In this document: one piece after another, positions 52,578 through 61,205 of the stretch
Numbering within the stretch: the first letter of the stretch is position 1
Layout of the letters: the number at the start of each line of letters is the position of its first letter
NCBI GenBank assembly: GCA_017462915.1
Contig: JAFTQG010000013.1
Location: 1 to 64,000 of the forward strand
Length of the DNA: 64,000 bases
Reading direction: 5' to 3'
Source: Prevotella sp.
GTDB lineage: Bacteria; Bacteroidota; Bacteroidia; Bacteroidales; Bacteroidaceae
Notes under the pieces: model-generated
Seen by the model: only the letters and a program-made list of their open reading frames with translations
Told to the model about the DNA's origin: nothing
Database searches by the model: none
Program-made: the position numbers and the translations under genes

Positions 52578-52666
52578 TAAAAGGTTAACGGCCATCTGCT
52601 ATGGTATGGCGTACAGTCCATACATATAGCATTTGGCTCATGACTAACAACTTTCAAAAAGAAACT

Positions 52667-55600
52667 ATGGCTTTCAAGAAAGAAAACAAGATAAAGAATA
52701 ATTTCACCAAGATTACCATTGGTATAGCGTCTCCAGAGGAAATTCTTGAGAACTCATTCGGTGAGGTTACCAAGCCTGAAACAATCAACTACCGCACGTA
52801 CAAGCCTGAGCGTGATGGCCTTTTCTGCGAGCGAATCTTCGGTCCTACAAAGGATTTCGAGTGTGCCTGCGGAAAGTACAAGCGTATCCGTTACCGTGGC
52901 ATCGTCTGCGACCGTTGCGGTGTTGAGGTTACAGAGAAGAAGGTGCGCCGTGAGCGTTCCGGACATATCGAGCTTGTCGTGCCTGTTGCCCACATCTGGT
53001 ATTTCCGCTCTCTGCCGAGCAAGATGGGCTATCTTCTCGGTATGCCTACAAAGAAGCTCGAGGCTGTGATATATTATGAGAAATATGTCGTGATACAGCC
53101 GGGAATCCTCGGTCCAAGAGACGAGGAGGACGAGCGTACTGCAGACGAGCATGTATACCGCCAGTTCGATCTCCTCTCAGAGGAAGAGCTGACAAGCCTC
53201 TATGACAATGGAGTGCTTGCCGATGAGAACGACCTTCTTCCTGATGATGATCCAAACAAGTTCATCGTCAAGATGGGTGCCGAAGCCATCTATGACCTCT
53301 TGCAGCGTCTTGACCTTGACGCTCTGTCCTATGAGCTTCGCGACCGTGCCAACAGCGACTCCTCACAGCAGCGCAAGACAGAGGCTCTGAAGCGTCTTCA
53401 GGTTGTAGAGGCCTTCCGTGCAAGCAAGGAAATCAACCGTCCGGAGTGGATGATACTGAAGATACTTCCTGTGACACCTCCGGAGCTCCGTCCGCTCGTG
53501 CCGCTGGATGGCGGACGTTTCGCGACGTCAGACCTCAACGACCTCTATCGTCGTGTCATCATCCGTAACAACCGTCTCAAGAGACTGATGGAGATAAAGG
53601 CACCTGAAGTTATTCTCCGCAACGAGAAGCGTATGCTTCAGGAAGCTGTCGACTCACTCTTCGACAACAGCCGTAAGGCATCTGCCGTGAAGAGCGAGAG
53701 CAACCGCCCTCTCAAGTCCCTCTCAGACTCCCTGAAGGGCAAGGCTGGACGTTTCCGTCAGAACCTTCTCGGTAAGAGTGTCGACTATTAAGCACGTTCG
53801 GTGATTGTCGTAGGTCCAGAGCTCAAGATGGGCGAGTGTGGCCTTCCTAAACTTATGGCTGCCGAACTTTACAAGCCGTTTATCATACGCAAGCTCATCG
53901 AGCGTGGCATCGTCAAGACCGTGAAGTCTGCAAAGCGCATCGTTGACCGTCGCGAGCCAGTCATCTTCGATATCCTTGAGAATGTGATGAAGGGACATCC
54001 TGTGCTCCTCAACCGTGCTCCGACACTTCACCGTCTCGGTATCCAGGCATTCCAGCCGAAGATGATTGAGGGTAAGGCTATCCAGCTCCATCCGTTGGCA
54101 TGTACAGCGTTCAACGCCGACTTCGACGGTGACCAGATGGCTGTCCATCTCCCTCTCTCCAACGAGGCTGTCCTCGAGGCGCAGATATTGATGCTCCAGA
54201 GCCATAACATCCTTAATCCTGCCAACGGTGCACCTATCACAGTGCCGTCACAGGATATGGTGCTTGGTCTCTACTATATCACAAAGATCCGTCCGGGAGC
54301 AAAGGGCGAAGGACTCACATTCTACGGTCCGGAGGAGGCGATTATCGCTTATAACGAGAAGCGTCTTGACCTCCACGCACAGGTTAAGGTTGTCGTCAAT
54401 GACATCGTCGACGGCAAGAAGGTTCGCCACATGGTTGAGACATCTGTCGGTCGTGTCATTGTCAATGAGATGATTCCTGACGAGATGGGATATGTCAATG
54501 CCATTATCTCAAAAGGCTCTCTCCGCGACATTATCGCCGATGTTATCAAGGAGGTAGGTTTCGCCAAGGCCTGCGAGTTCCTCGACGGCATCAAGAACCT
54601 CGGTTATCGTATGGCATACCAGGCTGGTCTGTCATTCAACCTTGACGATATCATCATCCCACCGGAGAAGGAAGAAATCATCCGCAAGGGTAATGAGGCC
54701 GTAAAGGATATCCAGATGAACTACGAGATGGGCTTCATCACGGATCAGGACCGTTACAATCAGGTAATCAACACATGGACACACGTCAATAACGATATCG
54801 GCGATATCCTCATGAAGGAAATGACCGAGGCAGACCAGGGCTTCAACGCTGTGTACATGATGCTTGACTCCGGTGCCCGTGGTTCTAAGGATCAGATCAA
54901 GCAGCTGTCAGGTATCCGCGGACTTATGGCAAAGCCTCAGAAGGCCGGTGCTGACGACCGTGCAACAATCGAGAACCCTATCCTGTCAAACTTCAAGGAA
55001 GGTATGTCAGTGCTCGAGTACTTCATTGCGTCACACGGTGCACGTAAGGGTCTTGCCGATACCGCCATGAAGACTGCCGATGCCGGTTATCTTACCCGTC
55101 GTCTTGTGGATGTCTCCCATGATGTCATCATCAATGAGGAAGACTGCGGTACACTCCGCGGTCTCAACTGTACAGCGTTGAAGAGTGGTGACGAGATCAT
55201 CGCCTCCCTCTCAAGCCGTATCCTCGGCCGTGTATCTGTACACGACGTCCTTGACCCACATACAGGCAAGGTGCTCTGCCCTGCAGGAGAGGAAATCACA
55301 GAGGCTCGTGCCAAGGCCATAGAGGAAGCAGATGTCGAGTCGGTAGAGATTCGCTCAGTGCTTACCTGTGAGTCCAGATCAGGTGTCTGCAAGAAGTGCT
55401 ACGGCCGTAACCTTGCTACAGCCAAGATGGTTCAGAAAGGCGAGGCTGTCGGTGTCATAGCCGCACAGGCTATCGGTGAGCCGGGAACACAGCTTACCCT
55501 CCGTACTTTCCACGCAGGCGGTGTCGCAGGTAATGCCGCTGCCAATGCAACGATTGTTGCCAAGGGTGATGTCCGCATCGAGTTCGACGAGCTTCGTACA

Positions 55601-57007
55601 GTACCGTTCCGCGAGGAGAACGACGGCGAGGATATCGACTGCCAGATGGTTGTATCACGTCTTGCCGAGATACGCTTCGTAGATCCTAACACGAATATTG
55701 CGCTCTCAAGCCAGAATATCCCATACGGCTCTTCACTCTATTATAAGAATGGTGATGTGCTCAAGAAGGGAGACGTCATAGCACGTTGGGACCCGTTCAA
55801 TGCAGTCATTGTCTCTGAGTATGCAGGTACACTTCGCTTCAATGATGTCATTGAAGGCAAGACGTTCCGTGCCGAGACCGATGATACGACAGGTCTTACC
55901 GAGAAGATTATCATCGACTCCAAGGACCGCAACCAGGTACCTACCTGTGATGTCATAGGCAAGAACGGCGAGGTGCTCGGCACCTATTACTTCCCTCGTG
56001 ACGGTCACGTTGTCGTAGAGGACGGTCAGAAGATAGCGACCGGTACAACTCTTGTCAAGATACCTCGTAGTGTAGCCAAGGTCGGTGATATCACCGGTGG
56101 TCTTCCACGAGTGACAGAGCTCTTCGAGGCACGTAACCCTTCCAATCCTGCCGTTGTCTCGGAAATCGATGGTGAGGTCACCATGGGCAAGATACGTCGC
56201 GGTAACCGTGAGGTCATTGTGACATCAAAGACCGGCGACCAGCGCAAGTACATGATTTCGCAGTCCAAGCAGATTCTTGTTCAGGAGCACGACGCCGTGC
56301 GTGCCGGAACACCGCTCTCCGACGGTGTCATCACTCCTGGTGATATCCTTGCCATCAAGGGCCCTACCGCAGTTCAGGAGTATATCGTCAATGAGGTTCA
56401 GGGTGTTTACCGTCTGCAGGGTGTGAAAATCAACGAGAAGCACTTTGAAATCATCGTACGTCAGATGATGCGCAAGGTGCGTATCGATGAGCCAGGCGAC
56501 ACGAACTTCCTCGAGCAGGAGCTTGTTGACAAACTTGACTTCCGTGAGGAGAATGACCGCATCTGGGGCAAGAAGGTTGTCGTTGATGCCGGTGATTCCG
56601 AGAATCTCAAGAAGGGACAGATTGTCACAGCACGCCGTCTGCGCGACGAGAATTCAAGTCTCAAGCGTCGTGACATGCGTCTTGTACAGGTACGCGAGGC
56701 GATACCTGCGACATCTACCCAGATACTCCAGGGCATCACACGTGCCGCCCTCGGTACCAAGTCATTCATGTCGGCAGCATCATTCCAGGAGACCACAAAG
56801 GTACTCAACGAGGCTGCTATCCGTGGCAAGTCCGACTATCTCGTAGGCATGAAGGAGAACGTAATCTCCGGCCATCTCATCCCAGCCGGTACAGGTCTGC
56901 GCGAGTTCGACAAGATCGTTGTCGGCAGCAAGGAAGAGTATGAGCGTATGCAGGCAAACAAGCGTAATGTCCTCGATTTCGTTGACAGCGACATCGTAGA
57001 GCGATAA
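52667..57007 (+). CDS. rpoC: RNA polymerase subunit beta', interrupted by in-frame TAA
   Basis: The frame holds 1447 codons from the ATG at 52667 and is cut by a TAA at 53789-53791. The first part (374 aa) has the zinc site [20 protein letters not shown] and the clamp. The second part has [20 protein letters not shown] (Mg-binding Asp triad, near codon 482), the trigger loop region ([20 protein letters not shown]) and the C-terminal jaw. The stop replaces the Ser of [14 protein letters not shown], a near-invariant switch-2 motif; one change TCA to TAA explains it. Natural splitting is unlikely because the cut falls in an active-centre motif, although a GTG at 53801 could reinitiate. A sequence error is the simplest cause, since the gene is essential. 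It follows rpoB by 89 bp. Confidence 0.93.
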
Positions 57008-57184: not shown

Positions 57185-58435
57185 ATGAACAGACTATTCG
57201 CAATAATAATATCAGCATTCATGGTTGTCCTCTCCGTTTCGGCGGAAAAGCAGATTACAGTACATCTTGCCAACCCTGTCTCCATGGAGCGCAAGTCCGT
57301 TCCCGTTGTTGTCCCTGTCTCAGGAGATGTACGTTCGGCAGTCGTCACCATTGCCGGCAAGGAAGTGCCATGCCAGCTTGACGATATGGATGATGACGGA
57401 CTGTTCGACGAGCTTTCTTTTGTCACCGACATGAAGAAGAAAGAGAAGCTGACAGCCACAGTAAGCCTTTTCACAGAAGGAGAGCCACGCCAGTATGAAC
57501 TGAAGACTTACGGCGGAATGGCGATACGCGACCGCAACAAGTCCGCTGCAAAACCTCAGCACATGCCTGTGAAGTCCATTACCTGCCCGGGAACAAGCAA
57601 TACCTATCAGTATATCTTCCCTCACGGTCCGGTGATGGAGAGCGACATGGCAGGTTTCCGCATCTATGGCGACCATCGTCAGTCGATAGACTATTATGGA
57701 CATAAGCAGCAACGCTGCGAGATAGCCGAGACCAGTTTCTACCCTTCCAAGGAGCAGAAAGCGGCAGGCTATGGCGACGATGTGCTCTATACCGGTACCA
57801 CATACGGCTGCGGCGCCCTCTATGGCTGGGACGGTAAGAATGCCGTGATGTTCCAGAATGTACGCACACGCACATATACAGTCGTCACGACAGGCCCGGT
57901 GCGTACGGTCATCGCCATAACCAACAAAGGCTGGCTTCCTTATAAAGGATGCAAGCCTGTGGACATCACCACGACATATACCGTCTATGCCGGTCACCGC
58001 GATGTGCAGGTCGATGTACGATTCTCCCGTACAGTGGCAGACATCCCGCTGTCTACAGGCATCGTGGATATAGTGGAAGGTTCGGAAGAGTATACGGACA
58101 AGGCCGGTCTCCGCGGATGCTGGGGTACAGCCTGTGCGGGCAACAACCCGAAGGTGTATGACACCCATACCGTAGGTCTCGGCGTATTTGTGCCAAGTCC
58201 TTATTACAAGAGCGACAGCCATTTCACCGACAAGGAAGCTGTTCCTGCTCCGAAGATACCGAACCAGGCCTATGTGGAGGTCTGCGGCACACAGACAGAC
58301 AACCTGCACTATTGGTTTGCCGTCACATGTGACATGGAGACTTTCGGATTCTCAGACAAGAACGCATGGTTCTCATGGCTGAAAGACTGGAAAAAGGCTC
58401 TTGCCAATCCTGTGAAAATAGAGATAAGCAAGTGA
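57185..58435 (+). CDS. DUF4861-family exported protein
   Basis: A 416-aa protein with a signal peptide (MNRLFAIIISAFMVVLSVSA). The body is beta-rich with DDMDDDGLFDELSFVTDMKK, YQYIFPHGPVMESDMAGFRI, IYGDHRQSIDYYGHKQQRCE and a C-terminal YWFAVTCDMETFGFSDKNAW, matching DUF4861, a family found in polysaccharide (pectin, ulvan) utilisation loci of Bacteroidetes. DMDDDGLFDEL also looks like a calcium-binding loop. It is periplasmic or surface-exposed. The downstream EIIC-like permease and KduI suggest work on unsaturated uronates. The reaction is unknown. Confidence 0.85.
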   Translation: MNRLFAIIISAFMVVLSVSAEKQITVHLANPVSMERKSVPVVVPVSGDVRSAVVTIAGKEVPCQLDDMDDDGLFDELSFVTDMKKKEKLTATVSLFTEGEPRQYELKTYGGMAIRDRNKSAAKPQHMPVKSITCPGTSNTYQYIFPHGPVMESDMAGFRIYGDHRQSIDYYGHKQQRCEIAETSFYPSKEQKAAGYGDDVLYTGTTYGCGALYGWDGKNAVMFQNVRTRTYTVVTTGPVRTVIAITNKGWLPYKGCKPVDITTTYTVYAGHRDVQVDVRFSRTVADIPLSTGIVDIVEGSEEYTDKAGLRGCWGTACAGNNPKVYDTHTVGLGVFVPSPYYKSDSHFTDKEAVPAPKIPNQAYVEVCGTQTDNLHYWFAVTCDMETFGFSDKNAWFSWLKDWKKALANPVKIEISK

Positions 58436-58592
58436 GTTGAATGGCTTACATATATTATAATATAGTATGTCCCATCTGCTTATCTTGTCAAGATAAAATA
58501 TATTCCCACGCACGAGGTCAGACACTTGCCTGTAGAGGCTATGCCGTCGGCTTTCCATCGCGAAATCACTAAAAACCAAACATATCTTTCTT

Positions 58593-59969
58593 ATGGAATC
58601 AGTATTCTCTTACATTATCGGTCTTGGCGCCGCAGTGATGATGCCAGTCATCTTCACCATTCTCGGCGTATGCATCGGTATCAAGTTCTCAAAGGCACTG
58701 AAGAGCGGCCTTTATGTCGGAGTCGGTTTTGTCGGCCTGTCGGTTGTCACAGCACTCCTCACCACAAGCCTCGGCCCAGCCTTGGGCAAAGTGGTGGAAA
58801 TCTATGGCCTTGAGCTTCAGGTGTTCGATATGGGCTGGCCTGCTGCTGCATCTGTGGCTTACAATACCCTTGTCGGCTCGTTCATCATACCTGTCTGCCT
58901 CGGTGTCAATCTCGTGCTCCTTCTCCTCGGATGCACACGCACCGTGAACATAGACCTCTGGAACTACTGGCATTTCGCATTCATCGGTGCCGTCGTATAC
59001 TTCATGACAGACTCTGTCGTATGGGGCTTCTTCGCGGCAATCATCTGCTACATCATAACCCTTGTCCTTGCAGACCTCACGGCAAAGAAATTCCAGAAGT
59101 TCTATCCTAACATGGAAGGCATATCCATCCCTCAGCCGTTCTGTCAGGGATTCATGCCTTTTGCAGTGGTTATCAACAAGTGTCTTGACTATGTTCCTGG
59201 CATCAACAAGGTGAATATCGACTCTGAAGGCATGAAGAAGAAGTTCGGCCTCTTCGGCGAACCTCTCTTCCTTGGTGTCATCATAGGTGTCATCATAGGC
59301 TGTCTCGCATGTAGGGACTGGAACGAAGTGGTAGACAATATTCCTGCCACTCTCGGTCTCGGCATCAAGATGGGTGCTGTCATGGAACTCATACCGCGCA
59401 TCACATCGCTCTTCATCGAAGGTCTCAAACCTATCTCCGACGCTACACGCGAGCTCATCGCCAAGAAGTTCGGTGCTGACAAGGAACTGTATATCGGCAT
59501 GTCGCCGGCACTCGTCATAGGACATCCTACTACCCTCGTGGTATCACTCCTCCTTATCCCTGTGACCCTTGCCCTCGCAGTCGTGCTCCCAGGCAACCAG
59601 TTCCTGCCATTGGCATCCCTCGCAGGCATGTTCTATGTCTTCGTGATGGTACTGCCTTACACCAACGGCAATGTCCTCCGCTCTTTCATCGTAGGCCTTG
59701 TAGTCATGGCCATAGGACTCTATTTCGTCACATGGATGGCTGGCGACTTTACCTCTGCCGCCCACTCTGTAGCCGTGGCACATCCAGAGGACGCCGCCGT
59801 GGCAGTGCCTGAAGGCTTCCAGGCCGGTGCTCTGGACTTCGCCTCCAGTCCGCTCTCCATGCTCATCTATGCAGGATGCAAGTACATGAAGTTTATAGGC
59901 GCAGGACTGCTCTGTGTCATCACGGCAGCACTTGTCGTATGGAACTATATGCGCATCAACAAGAAATGA
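58593..59969 (+). CDS. Galactitol-type PTS EIIC permease (orphan)
   Basis: A 458-aa multi-pass inner-membrane protein. It matches the GatC/EIIC-GAT family: VFSYIIGLGAAVMMPVIFTI, FDMGWPAAASVAYNTLVGSF, SIPQPFCQGFMPFAVVINKC, LFGEPLFLGVIIGVIIGCLA, MSPALVIGHPTTLVVSLLLI. No EIIA or EIIB domain is fused or adjacent, and Bacteroidetes generally lack a complete PTS, so it probably transports without phosphorylation. It lies between a DUF4861 gene and kduI, so its cargo may be a keto-uronate. The N-terminus begins at ATG 58593. Confidence 0.88.
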   Translation: MESVFSYIIGLGAAVMMPVIFTILGVCIGIKFSKALKSGLYVGVGFVGLSVVTALLTTSLGPALGKVVEIYGLELQVFDMGWPAAASVAYNTLVGSFIIPVCLGVNLVLLLLGCTRTVNIDLWNYWHFAFIGAVVYFMTDSVVWGFFAAIICYIITLVLADLTAKKFQKFYPNMEGISIPQPFCQGFMPFAVVINKCLDYVPGINKVNIDSEGMKKKFGLFGEPLFLGVIIGVIIGCLACRDWNEVVDNIPATLGLGIKMGAVMELIPRITSLFIEGLKPISDATRELIAKKFGADKELYIGMSPALVIGHPTTLVVSLLLIPVTLALAVVLPGNQFLPLASLAGMFYVFVMVLPYTNGNVLRSFIVGLVVMAIGLYFVTWMAGDFTSAAHSVAVAHPEDAAVAVPEGFQAGALDFASSPLSMLIYAGCKYMKFIGAGLLCVITAALVVWNYMRINKK

Positions 59970-60029
59970 TAATCCGTTTTTACATGAATAATAAGTAAGT
60001 GAACAAAATTAATGTATGATATAAAGCGC

Positions 60030-60130
60030 AGTTATTTTTGAGATGTTTTTCGTTTTGGAGCGAAAGAGCATAGCAGGCTATGCGACTGAGTGAGAAGACG
60101 GAAACAGCCAAAAAGAGCAAGTTTTATGCA
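60030..60130. repeat. CATAGC-AG-GCTATG intergenic module
   Basis: CATAGCAGGCTATG (60069-60082) is a 6-bp inverted repeat with a 2-bp centre, flanked by TTTTTCGTTTTGGAGCGAAA upstream and GACTGAGTGAGAAGACGGAA downstream. A related module with CATAGCGGGCTATG and similar purine-rich flanks (GAGACGGAACGGGAAG) is at 5296-5309. It is non-coding and lies upstream of the kduI promoter. Confidence 0.6.
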
Positions 60131-60149
60131 TACAAGATTATGTCATTTA

Positions 60150-60179
60150 CTTGATTCTATATAGTATCGTTTAATTTTG
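60150..60179 (+). promoter_or_regulatory. Promoter of kduI
   Basis: TAATTTTG at 60172-60179 is an exact -7 match, with CTTG (one mismatch) at 60150-60153, 18 bp upstream. It gives a leader of about 33 nt to the ATG at 60219 and argues that kduI can be expressed apart from the upstream permease. Confidence 0.62.
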
Positions 60180-60218
60180 TTTGCTTACTTAACAAAAACA
60201 ACATCAATAGGAAAACGT

Positions 60219-61205
60219 ATGAAAAAGACCCTTTTGACCGCCGCTCTCGCCGTTATGGCTCTCGGCGCTTCTGCACAGCAGAATGTTTACTTCCAGACAG
60301 CTTGCCATCCGGAAGACGTGAAGCACTATGACACCAAGACTCTCCGCGAGCGCTTCGTCATGGAGAAGGTCATGGCTGCCGACGAAATCAACCTGACCTA
60401 CTCACAGTATGACCGCTTCATCTTCGGCGGTGCAATGCCTGTGAACAAGGATCTCAAGCTCGAGAACTTCACAGCCCTCGGACTCTCTGTCGACAAGACT
60501 ATCAAGGAACCGTACTTCCTCCACAACCGCGAGATGGGCATCATCAACTGCGGACAGGGCGTAGGCTCAGTGTTCGTTGACGGCAAGGAGTATGTCCTCA
60601 GTCCTAAGGAGGCTCTCTATGTAGGCCGTGGCCACATGCAGGACAAGAAAGGTAACTGGATAGACTGCAACAAGGAGGTGGTGTTCCGCTCAAAGGATCC
60701 GAAGAATCCTGCAAAGTTCTATATCAACTCTGCCACTGCCCACAAGCACTACAAGACCCAGTGGGTCACTCTCGACGGACGTAAAGGCTCTCTGAAGGCC
60801 GCTGTCTGGGGACCTGTAGGCACAAAGGAAGAGGCCAACGCGCGCACCATCTATAAGCTCATCGTACGTGACGCTCTGGAAGAAGGCCCTTGCCAGCTCC
60901 AGATGGGTCTCACACAGCTTGAGCCGGGAGCAGTATGGAATACCATGCCTCCTCACACACACGGCCGCCGCATCGAGGCTTACTATTATTTCAACCTTCC
61001 TGAAGGACAGACCATCGACCATGTCATGGGCCAGCCACAGGAGTCACGCAACGTATGGCTGCACAACGAGCAGGCCATCATGTCTCCAGAGTGGTCTATC
61101 CACGCAGCGGCAGGCACATACTACTATACCTTCATCTGGGGTATGGCAGGCGAGAACCTCGAGTATAACGACAAGGATGTCGTTCCTGTAATAGACATCC
61201 TGTAA
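60219..61205 (+). CDS. kduI: 5-dehydro-4-deoxy-D-glucuronate isomerase (KduI) with signal peptide
   Basis: The protein is 328 aa from ATG 60219, set by the promoter and by the signal peptide [20 protein letters not shown]. The rest is a full KduI double cupin: [54 protein letters not shown], then the metal site [20 protein letters not shown] (His, His, Glu) with a further His in [20 protein letters not shown]. It converts 5-keto-4-deoxyuronate to 3-deoxy-glycero-hexulosonate. Typical KduI is cytosolic and about 280 aa, so export to the periplasm is unusual. Together with the EIIC-like permease it suggests isomerisation before uptake. Confidence 0.94.

Follow-up and report, generated by a model that had tools for sequence, protein, structure and literature searches.

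Introduction

The periplasm is where Bacteroides species break pectin and glycosaminoglycans down to unsaturated uronates. A study of Bacteroides thetaiotaomicron regulons states, in the portion of its text available to us, that most glycan pathways end with periplasmic monosaccharides that need import, and suggests 5-dehydro-4-deoxy-D-glucuronate among these products; that portion names no carrier for this compound, and its Figure 3B shows inner-membrane transporters (PMC3878776). In the accessible parts of a survey of kduI clusters, neither an exported class of the isomerase KduI nor an EIIC is mentioned, the word "periplasm" occurs once, for Dickeya porins, and "signal" and "PTS" do not occur (PMC12838403). 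For GalABC, a transporter of the galactitol-type phosphotransferase system (PTS), xylose uptake without phosphorylation was deduced in an E. coli lacking Enzyme I, as an excerpt of that work reports (PMC10989795). Here we analyse a window of 64,000 nucleotides from Prevotella sp. (assembly GCA_017462915.1, contig JAFTQG010000013.1, positions 1 to 64,000), in which the gene of an orphan EIIC, the PTS membrane domain, is followed by that of a KduI with a predicted signal peptide. The EIIC-KduI pair is a conserved Bacteroidales module and no local accident. We lean slightly towards reading it as a split uronate pathway, in which KduI would isomerise its substrate in the periplasm and the EIIC would import the product without phosphorylating it. 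The features concerned are as follows.

58593..59969, + strand: orphan galactitol-type EIIC, 458 amino acids (aa), polytopic, proposed non-phosphorylating importer (PF03611, match to 9u82, hydrophobic segments)
59502..59504, + strand: codon of EIIC Ser304, compared with the Asp of PTS-linked EIIC-GAT proteins (residue comparison)
60219..61205, + strand: KduI, 5-dehydro-4-deoxy-D-glucuronate isomerase with a predicted signal peptide, 328 aa (NF002091; 9kd0, E 4.7e-115)
60219..60275, + strand: predicted KduI signal peptide, 19 residues, then Gln (sequence; leader and Gln in EIIC-linked relatives)

No description of an exported KduI with an EIIC was found among the full-text literature matches listed, most subscription papers being out of reach. 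In the searchable portions of individual papers, PMC4769552 and PMC11351048 had no relevant term matches, PMC3243724 matched only for BT4108, and PMC11784079 has a uronate isomerase with no mention of KduI or PTS.

Conservation of the EIIC-KduI pair

We followed the linkage through the best 80 of at least 486 confirmed candidate loci (named loci, with handles beginning with L; genomes begin with G and contigs with C), a set which, being the best-scoring, leans to close relatives. KduI lies within 2 kb of the EIIC in 77 of the 80, as determined by tblastn because no EIIC open reading frame (ORF) was called in L151, L162, L194 and L197. In the three unpaired loci (L163, L190 and L192) the contig ends 219 to 1637 bases past the EIIC. 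By title, 77 named loci are from Bacteroidales, counting two Candidatus genera that we take to belong to this order; L144 is titled as an uncultured bacterium, and L140 and L179 have labels of the Bacillota type. These last two, titled Bacillota bacterium and Clostridium sp., have loci of the Bacteroidales type and are probably mislabelled bins.

Among 119 relatives, the EIIC was found in 35 and KduI in 71, and in 34 of the 35 EIIC-bearing genomes KduI adjoins the EIIC (coordinates matched by hand). Twenty of these 34 have no further KduI match, and ten of the 20 reach a completeness of 90% or more (the window genome G000, and G008, G016, G024, G030, G035, G038, G045, G060 and G096). G040 and G071 gave partial matches to the exported type of KduI and none to the EIIC. 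In a phylum-wide sample the EIIC occurs in 3 of 395 genomes, which are the window genome and two others from the same family; G096, which belongs to a different family of the same order, also has it. The earlier note on this DNA had a single locus to go on; the observation is confirmed and is now stronger, since the pair recurs across Bacteroidales. The linkage stays constant while the neighbours differ, so the pair has stayed together as its neighbours were exchanged.

In G002 the EIIC (L032:967-2934) lies in a 656-aa frame that continues into most of a KduD-like short-chain dehydrogenase/reductase (SDR), a fusion or an assembly chimera. At L041:7550-9172, one ORF links an exported stretch that by eye resembles a pectin-type beta-helix enzyme with the C-terminal portion of a KduD-like SDR, which may reflect a deletion or an assembly chimera.

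A probably exported class of KduI

The window protein clears the NCBIfam equivalog cut-off for KduI (NF002091, 343 bits against 250) as well as that of PF04962 (E 1.9e-16), and it has the His, His, Glu and His metal ligands, which we take to be His196, His198, Glu203 and His245 of the E. coli enzyme. It departs from KduI as usually defined, a cytosolic enzyme, in its predicted location: a signal peptide is predicted from its sequence, as the earlier note had seen. The listed ORF begins at TTG 60177; this start was dropped for ATG 60219, whose leader type matches that of the relatives. The sequence indicates that ATG 60219 is almost certainly the true start, giving the 19-residue leader followed by QQ. 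By a crude rule, leaders are present in 75 of the 77 EIIC-linked KduIs of the named loci, the exceptions being L166 and L168, where the start is unclear. In 71 of the 77 the first residue past the predicted cut is Gln, in agreement with the Bacteroidetes Q-rule, which expects Gln at this place according to the part of the source available (PMC5837995).

Judged by eye, none of the other KduIs in 40 fetched loci has a leader; ten more non-paired KduI matches lie in relatives outside this fetched set. A KduD-type SDR, recognised by its N-terminal motif and confirmed with Pfam in one case, is found nearby in 25 of the 29 loci of this class in which KduI was called, the remaining 11 of 40 having been lost because the gene caller missed KduI. 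In a tree of 41 rows the exported and leaderless classes split at 99/99 support. Both keep the metal-ligand columns of E. coli: the leaderless class in 40 of 40, and the exported class, in 76 rows (short rows L165 and L208 removed from 78), with His 75, His 75, Glu 74 (one Asp) and His 75, the remainder being X or gap. In the PDB the window KduI matches 9kd0 best (E 4.7e-115). The 9kd0 chain differs little from the exported Bacteroides faecis KduI over residues 20-306 (636 bits), a match that begins at the mature end. Taken together, these comparisons show that the EIIC-linked KduIs are a class of their own, probably exported and distinct from the leaderless KduIs beside KduD.

An EIIC apart from its phosphotransferase relatives

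The EIIC passes PF03611 with 265 bits (cut-off 24.2, E 1.4e-78). The profile spans residues 7-400 of the 458, with hydrophobic segments throughout, as in a plain IIC. In the PDB it matches nothing up to E 1 except the galactitol IIC 9u82 (E 3.2e-77), and its score for the galactitol-specific subfamily TIGR00827 is under the cut-off (384 against 542 bits). A Pfam scan of the window found no IIA or IIB gene beside it. The window genome comprises 2.93 Mb in 59 contigs, with a listed completeness of 99.97%; EIIC-GAT and KduI each match once in it, both at this locus. At E 0.001, HPr (PF00381) and PTS_IIB (PF02302) gave no match in this genome; of 14 control genomes, 7 were positive for HPr and 6 for PTS_IIB. 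The earlier claim that the permease has no phosphotransfer partners thus stands genome-wide for HPr and PTS_IIB, with Enzyme I and EIIA outside the search.

We compared 78 orphan EIICs with 8 PTS-linked EIICs that adjoin IIA and IIB genes on plasmids. The named loci supply 76 of the orphans (all 80 except L151, L162, L194 and L197, where the gene caller chose other frames); the window and a plasmid of Phocaeicola massiliensis supply one each. Residue 304 is Ser in 78 of 78 orphans and Asp in 8 of 8 PTS-linked proteins, and the solved 9u82 also has Asp in this column. Q181 and E265 are likewise fixed in the orphans (78 of 78 each), and K259 is present in 77 of 78. In a tree of 28 of the 78 orphans, the 8 PTS-linked EIICs and UlaA, a branch with 100/100 support parts the orphans from the PTS-linked proteins, the branches on the PTS side being long.

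The P. massiliensis record labelled as a plasmid (L228, OY725991.1), whose orphan EIIC is 74% identical, could be a misassigned chromosomal contig.

Variable neighbours of the pair

In the window, rpoC, a DUF4861 gene, the EIIC-GAT gene and the KduI gene follow one another on the + strand, the spacing being 157 bases from the DUF4861 gene to the EIIC and 249 bases from the EIIC to KduI.

57185..58435, + strand: DUF4861 protein, 416 aa, predicted to be exported (PF16153, E 2e-94; hydrophobic N-terminal leader)
57185..57244, + strand: predicted signal peptide of the DUF4861 protein, MNRLFAIIISAFMVVLSVSA (sequence inspection and hydrophobicity)
60151..60179, + strand: possible, weak Bacteroidetes-type promoter before KduI, TTG, 18 bases, TANNTTTG (motif match)

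The presence of an exported DUF4861 protein beside the pair, as the earlier note described it, is borne out by the PF16153 score (317 bits against a cut-off of 22.3) and by the leader; against the BT_3233 equivalog model the protein falls under the cut-off (45 against 320). No paper in the full-text literature searched names DUF4861. The gene lies directly before the EIIC in 18 of the 80 named loci (BLAST and Pfam), and the profile run on six-frame translations recovered the same 18 and one distant opposite-strand copy in L197. We thus rejected DUF4861 as a constant third component. Of the three genes that had been taken for a unit, only the EIIC and KduI behave as one. The earlier interpretation is partly supported, well so on the pairing and on the lack of HPr and EIIB; its transport step stays a proposal, and it is wrong only in making DUF4861 a fixed part. 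DUF4861 is an optional partner and a probable exported accessory; that it aids the opening or binding of unsaturated sugars is only a guess.

All neighbour counts are lower bounds, as 3 loci have less than 1500 bases before the EIIC and 8 have less than 2500 after it. A major facilitator superfamily (MFS) transporter, found after KduI in at least 25 of the 80, was rejected as a constant partner. DUF4861 and the MFS occur together in none of the 80, an exclusion which could reflect lineage, or else function. KduD is present in 10 of the 80, KdgK or KdgA in 10, relatives of glycoside hydrolase families 88 and 105 (GH88/105) in 13 and pectinesterase relatives in 13; in examples checked with Pfam, the assignments to DUF4861, GH88/105 and pectinesterase held. 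Transcription of the pair runs away from GH88/105 and pectinesterase genes in Phocaeicola vulgatus ATCC 8482 (L183) and Bacteroides xylanisolvens XB1A (L217). Because genes of these two kinds adjoin the pair, pectin is favoured over glycosaminoglycans as the source of the uronate. The earlier note had left both open, and such pectin-type neighbours accompany part of the relatives. Glycosaminoglycans may still contribute, since periplasmic GH88 of B. thetaiotaomicron yields 5-keto-4-deoxyuronate from chondroitin, according to the part of that study at hand (PMC9067506).

Upstream in the window, rpoC (52601-57007) is broken by an in-frame stop at 53789-53791, its relative in L037 being a single frame of 1468 aa; this stop, in an essential gene, probably arose through faulty sequencing or assembly.

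Other pathway enzymes of the window genome

The window genome encodes three GH88/105 proteins, all with leaders. KduD (73% identical) is leaderless, and KdgK (82%) adjoins a KdgA-like aldolase, judged as such by its N-terminus. As the GH88/105 proteins and the sole KduI are exported and KduD has no leader, an intermediate has to pass the inner membrane once isomerised, unless material that escapes isomerisation finds another use.

One of the three leader-bearing GH88/105 proteins, on contig C27 (L135:9205-11880), combines GH28 and GH88/105 in one chain. On contig C16 (L237:6412-10614), a lone MFS gene stands at an apparent EIIC-KduI-MFS site; the pair may have moved out of this site or may never have entered it.

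A proposed route of uronate import and its alternatives

The route that we propose would begin in the periplasm, where exported GH88/105 hydrolases would split 4,5-unsaturated galacturonate off pectin oligosaccharides. This sugar would open to 5-keto-4-deoxyuronate (DHU, also DKI), and the exported KduI would turn DHU into the diketo acid DKII (3-deoxy-D-glycero-2,5-hexodiulosonate) before it meets the inner membrane. The orphan EIIC, an elevator permease of the galactitol type acting without HPr and EIIB, would pass the open-chain DKII inward unphosphorylated, and reduction by cytosolic KduD and phosphorylation by KdgK, then KdgA, would draw the product in. The galactitol family takes a six-carbon substrate in open-chain form, and the acid that KduI makes is likewise an open-chain six-carbon compound. 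The activity of KduI in the periplasm and the substrate, direction and energetics of the EIIC are what we infer.

We see an even chance that the proposal extends further: a PTS membrane domain would serve Bacteroidales as a stand-alone carrier of the KduI product, periplasmic isomerisation with import through the EIIC would be a general way for gut and rumen Bacteroidales to take up unsaturated uronates, and the change from Asp to Ser would mark release from phosphotransfer. The pair is in any case a specific candidate for uronate import in common gut species, among them P. vulgatus and B. xylanisolvens. If the reading is true, it would be a natural case of a PTS membrane domain kept as an ordinary transporter, with a single marker residue.

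Several observations weigh against this reading. Fourteen of the 34 paired genomes also hold a KduI match of the other class (one of them a fragment), so that the export route is not the sole route there, and at L186:16201-17124 a second KduI (55%), leaderless, lies on the strand opposite to the pair. One of the 35 EIIC-bearing genomes, G002 (81% complete), has no KduI match. The gaps on either side of the EIIC, together with a possible promoter of its own for KduI, mean that the three genes may not share a single transcript; this promoter pattern, set by what we take to be the Bacteroidetes consensus, has its sole match in the window here, yet 0.48 matches are expected by chance. The substitution at residue 304 could also reflect the choice of substrate and not the loss of phosphotransfer: Asp314 of E. 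coli UlaA is a substrate contact in the portion of the published work available (PMC6048161), and it is plausible, though not sure, that Ser304 maps to it, the hhalign probability being 1.5% (P 0.014) and the MAFFT alignment being 2 residues off.

The MFS transporter could itself be the importer of the KduI product, the EIIC then carrying something else, such as DHU or a related open-chain acid. The frequent position of this transporter after KduI would fit such a scheme, and the window genome retains a 74% relative on contig C16, apart from the pair. This relative stands alone directly behind the gene that immediately precedes EIIC-KduI-MFS in L039, L046, L051 and L055 (identified by N-terminal motifs, by eye), while EIIC and KduI lie together elsewhere. 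As this type of MFS was not found near the EIIC in 55 of the 80 named loci and the constant partner of KduI is the EIIC, not the MFS, we consider this scheme unlikely. Somewhat more doubtful still is that the exported KduI converts galacturonate or glucuronate to keto forms, to be imported as keto acids by the EIIC. E. coli KduI reportedly accepts hexuronates, and saturated galacturonate also arises from pectin degradation, but the enzymes linked to the pair, KduD on the one hand and KdgK or KdgA on the other, are those of the DHU branch, and the window protein clears the KduI equivalog cut-off.

An ordinary phosphotransferase system, with the phosphocarriers encoded elsewhere, would suit a permease that is a true EIIC-GAT by profile, and Enzyme I and EIIA lay outside the searches made. 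Such a system is very improbable given that HPr and PTS_IIB were not found in a nearly complete genome with positive controls, that the orphans form a separate group with Ser for Asp throughout, and that the protein scores below the galactitol IIC subfamily. It is just as improbable that KduI works in the cytosol with its leader unused. The leader is a prediction, but it recurs with Gln at +1 in the EIIC-linked class and is missing from all 40 fetched loci of the other, and the solved relative 9kd0 aligns from the leader end. We thus retain, with the slight preference stated above, periplasmic isomerisation followed by import through the EIIC.

Comparison with known systems

The cytosolic kduI-kduD and kduI-dhuD clusters, as far as the accessible text of the survey goes, share the isomerase family and the pathway with the locus described here (PMC12838403). 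A close solved homologue of the exported class, 9kd0, is known here as a chain sequence alone. On the transport side, the window EIIC resembles GatC and the EIIC-GAT family (PF03611, 9u82) across nearly its whole length, but differs in having neither HPr nor PTS_IIB in its genome, no adjoining IIA or IIB, Ser304 in place of Asp, KduI as its partner and a score below TIGR00827. UlaA is a member of the same ascorbate/galactitol superfamily, and its elevator mechanism and substrate pocket are described in the part of the publication available (PMC6048161). UlaA is coupled to phosphorylation, with its own EIIA and EIIB, and its pocket Asp314 may fall on Ser304, in what is a very weak alignment. 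A functional likeness is that to GalABC and mutated GatC of E. coli, galactitol-type PTS transporters that act as facilitators for xylose. There, as far as the excerpt describes it, IIA and IIB are present and transport without phosphorylation is a side activity observed once cells had been selected or mutated (PMC10989795), whereas here we find a conserved group of EIICs linked to KduI.

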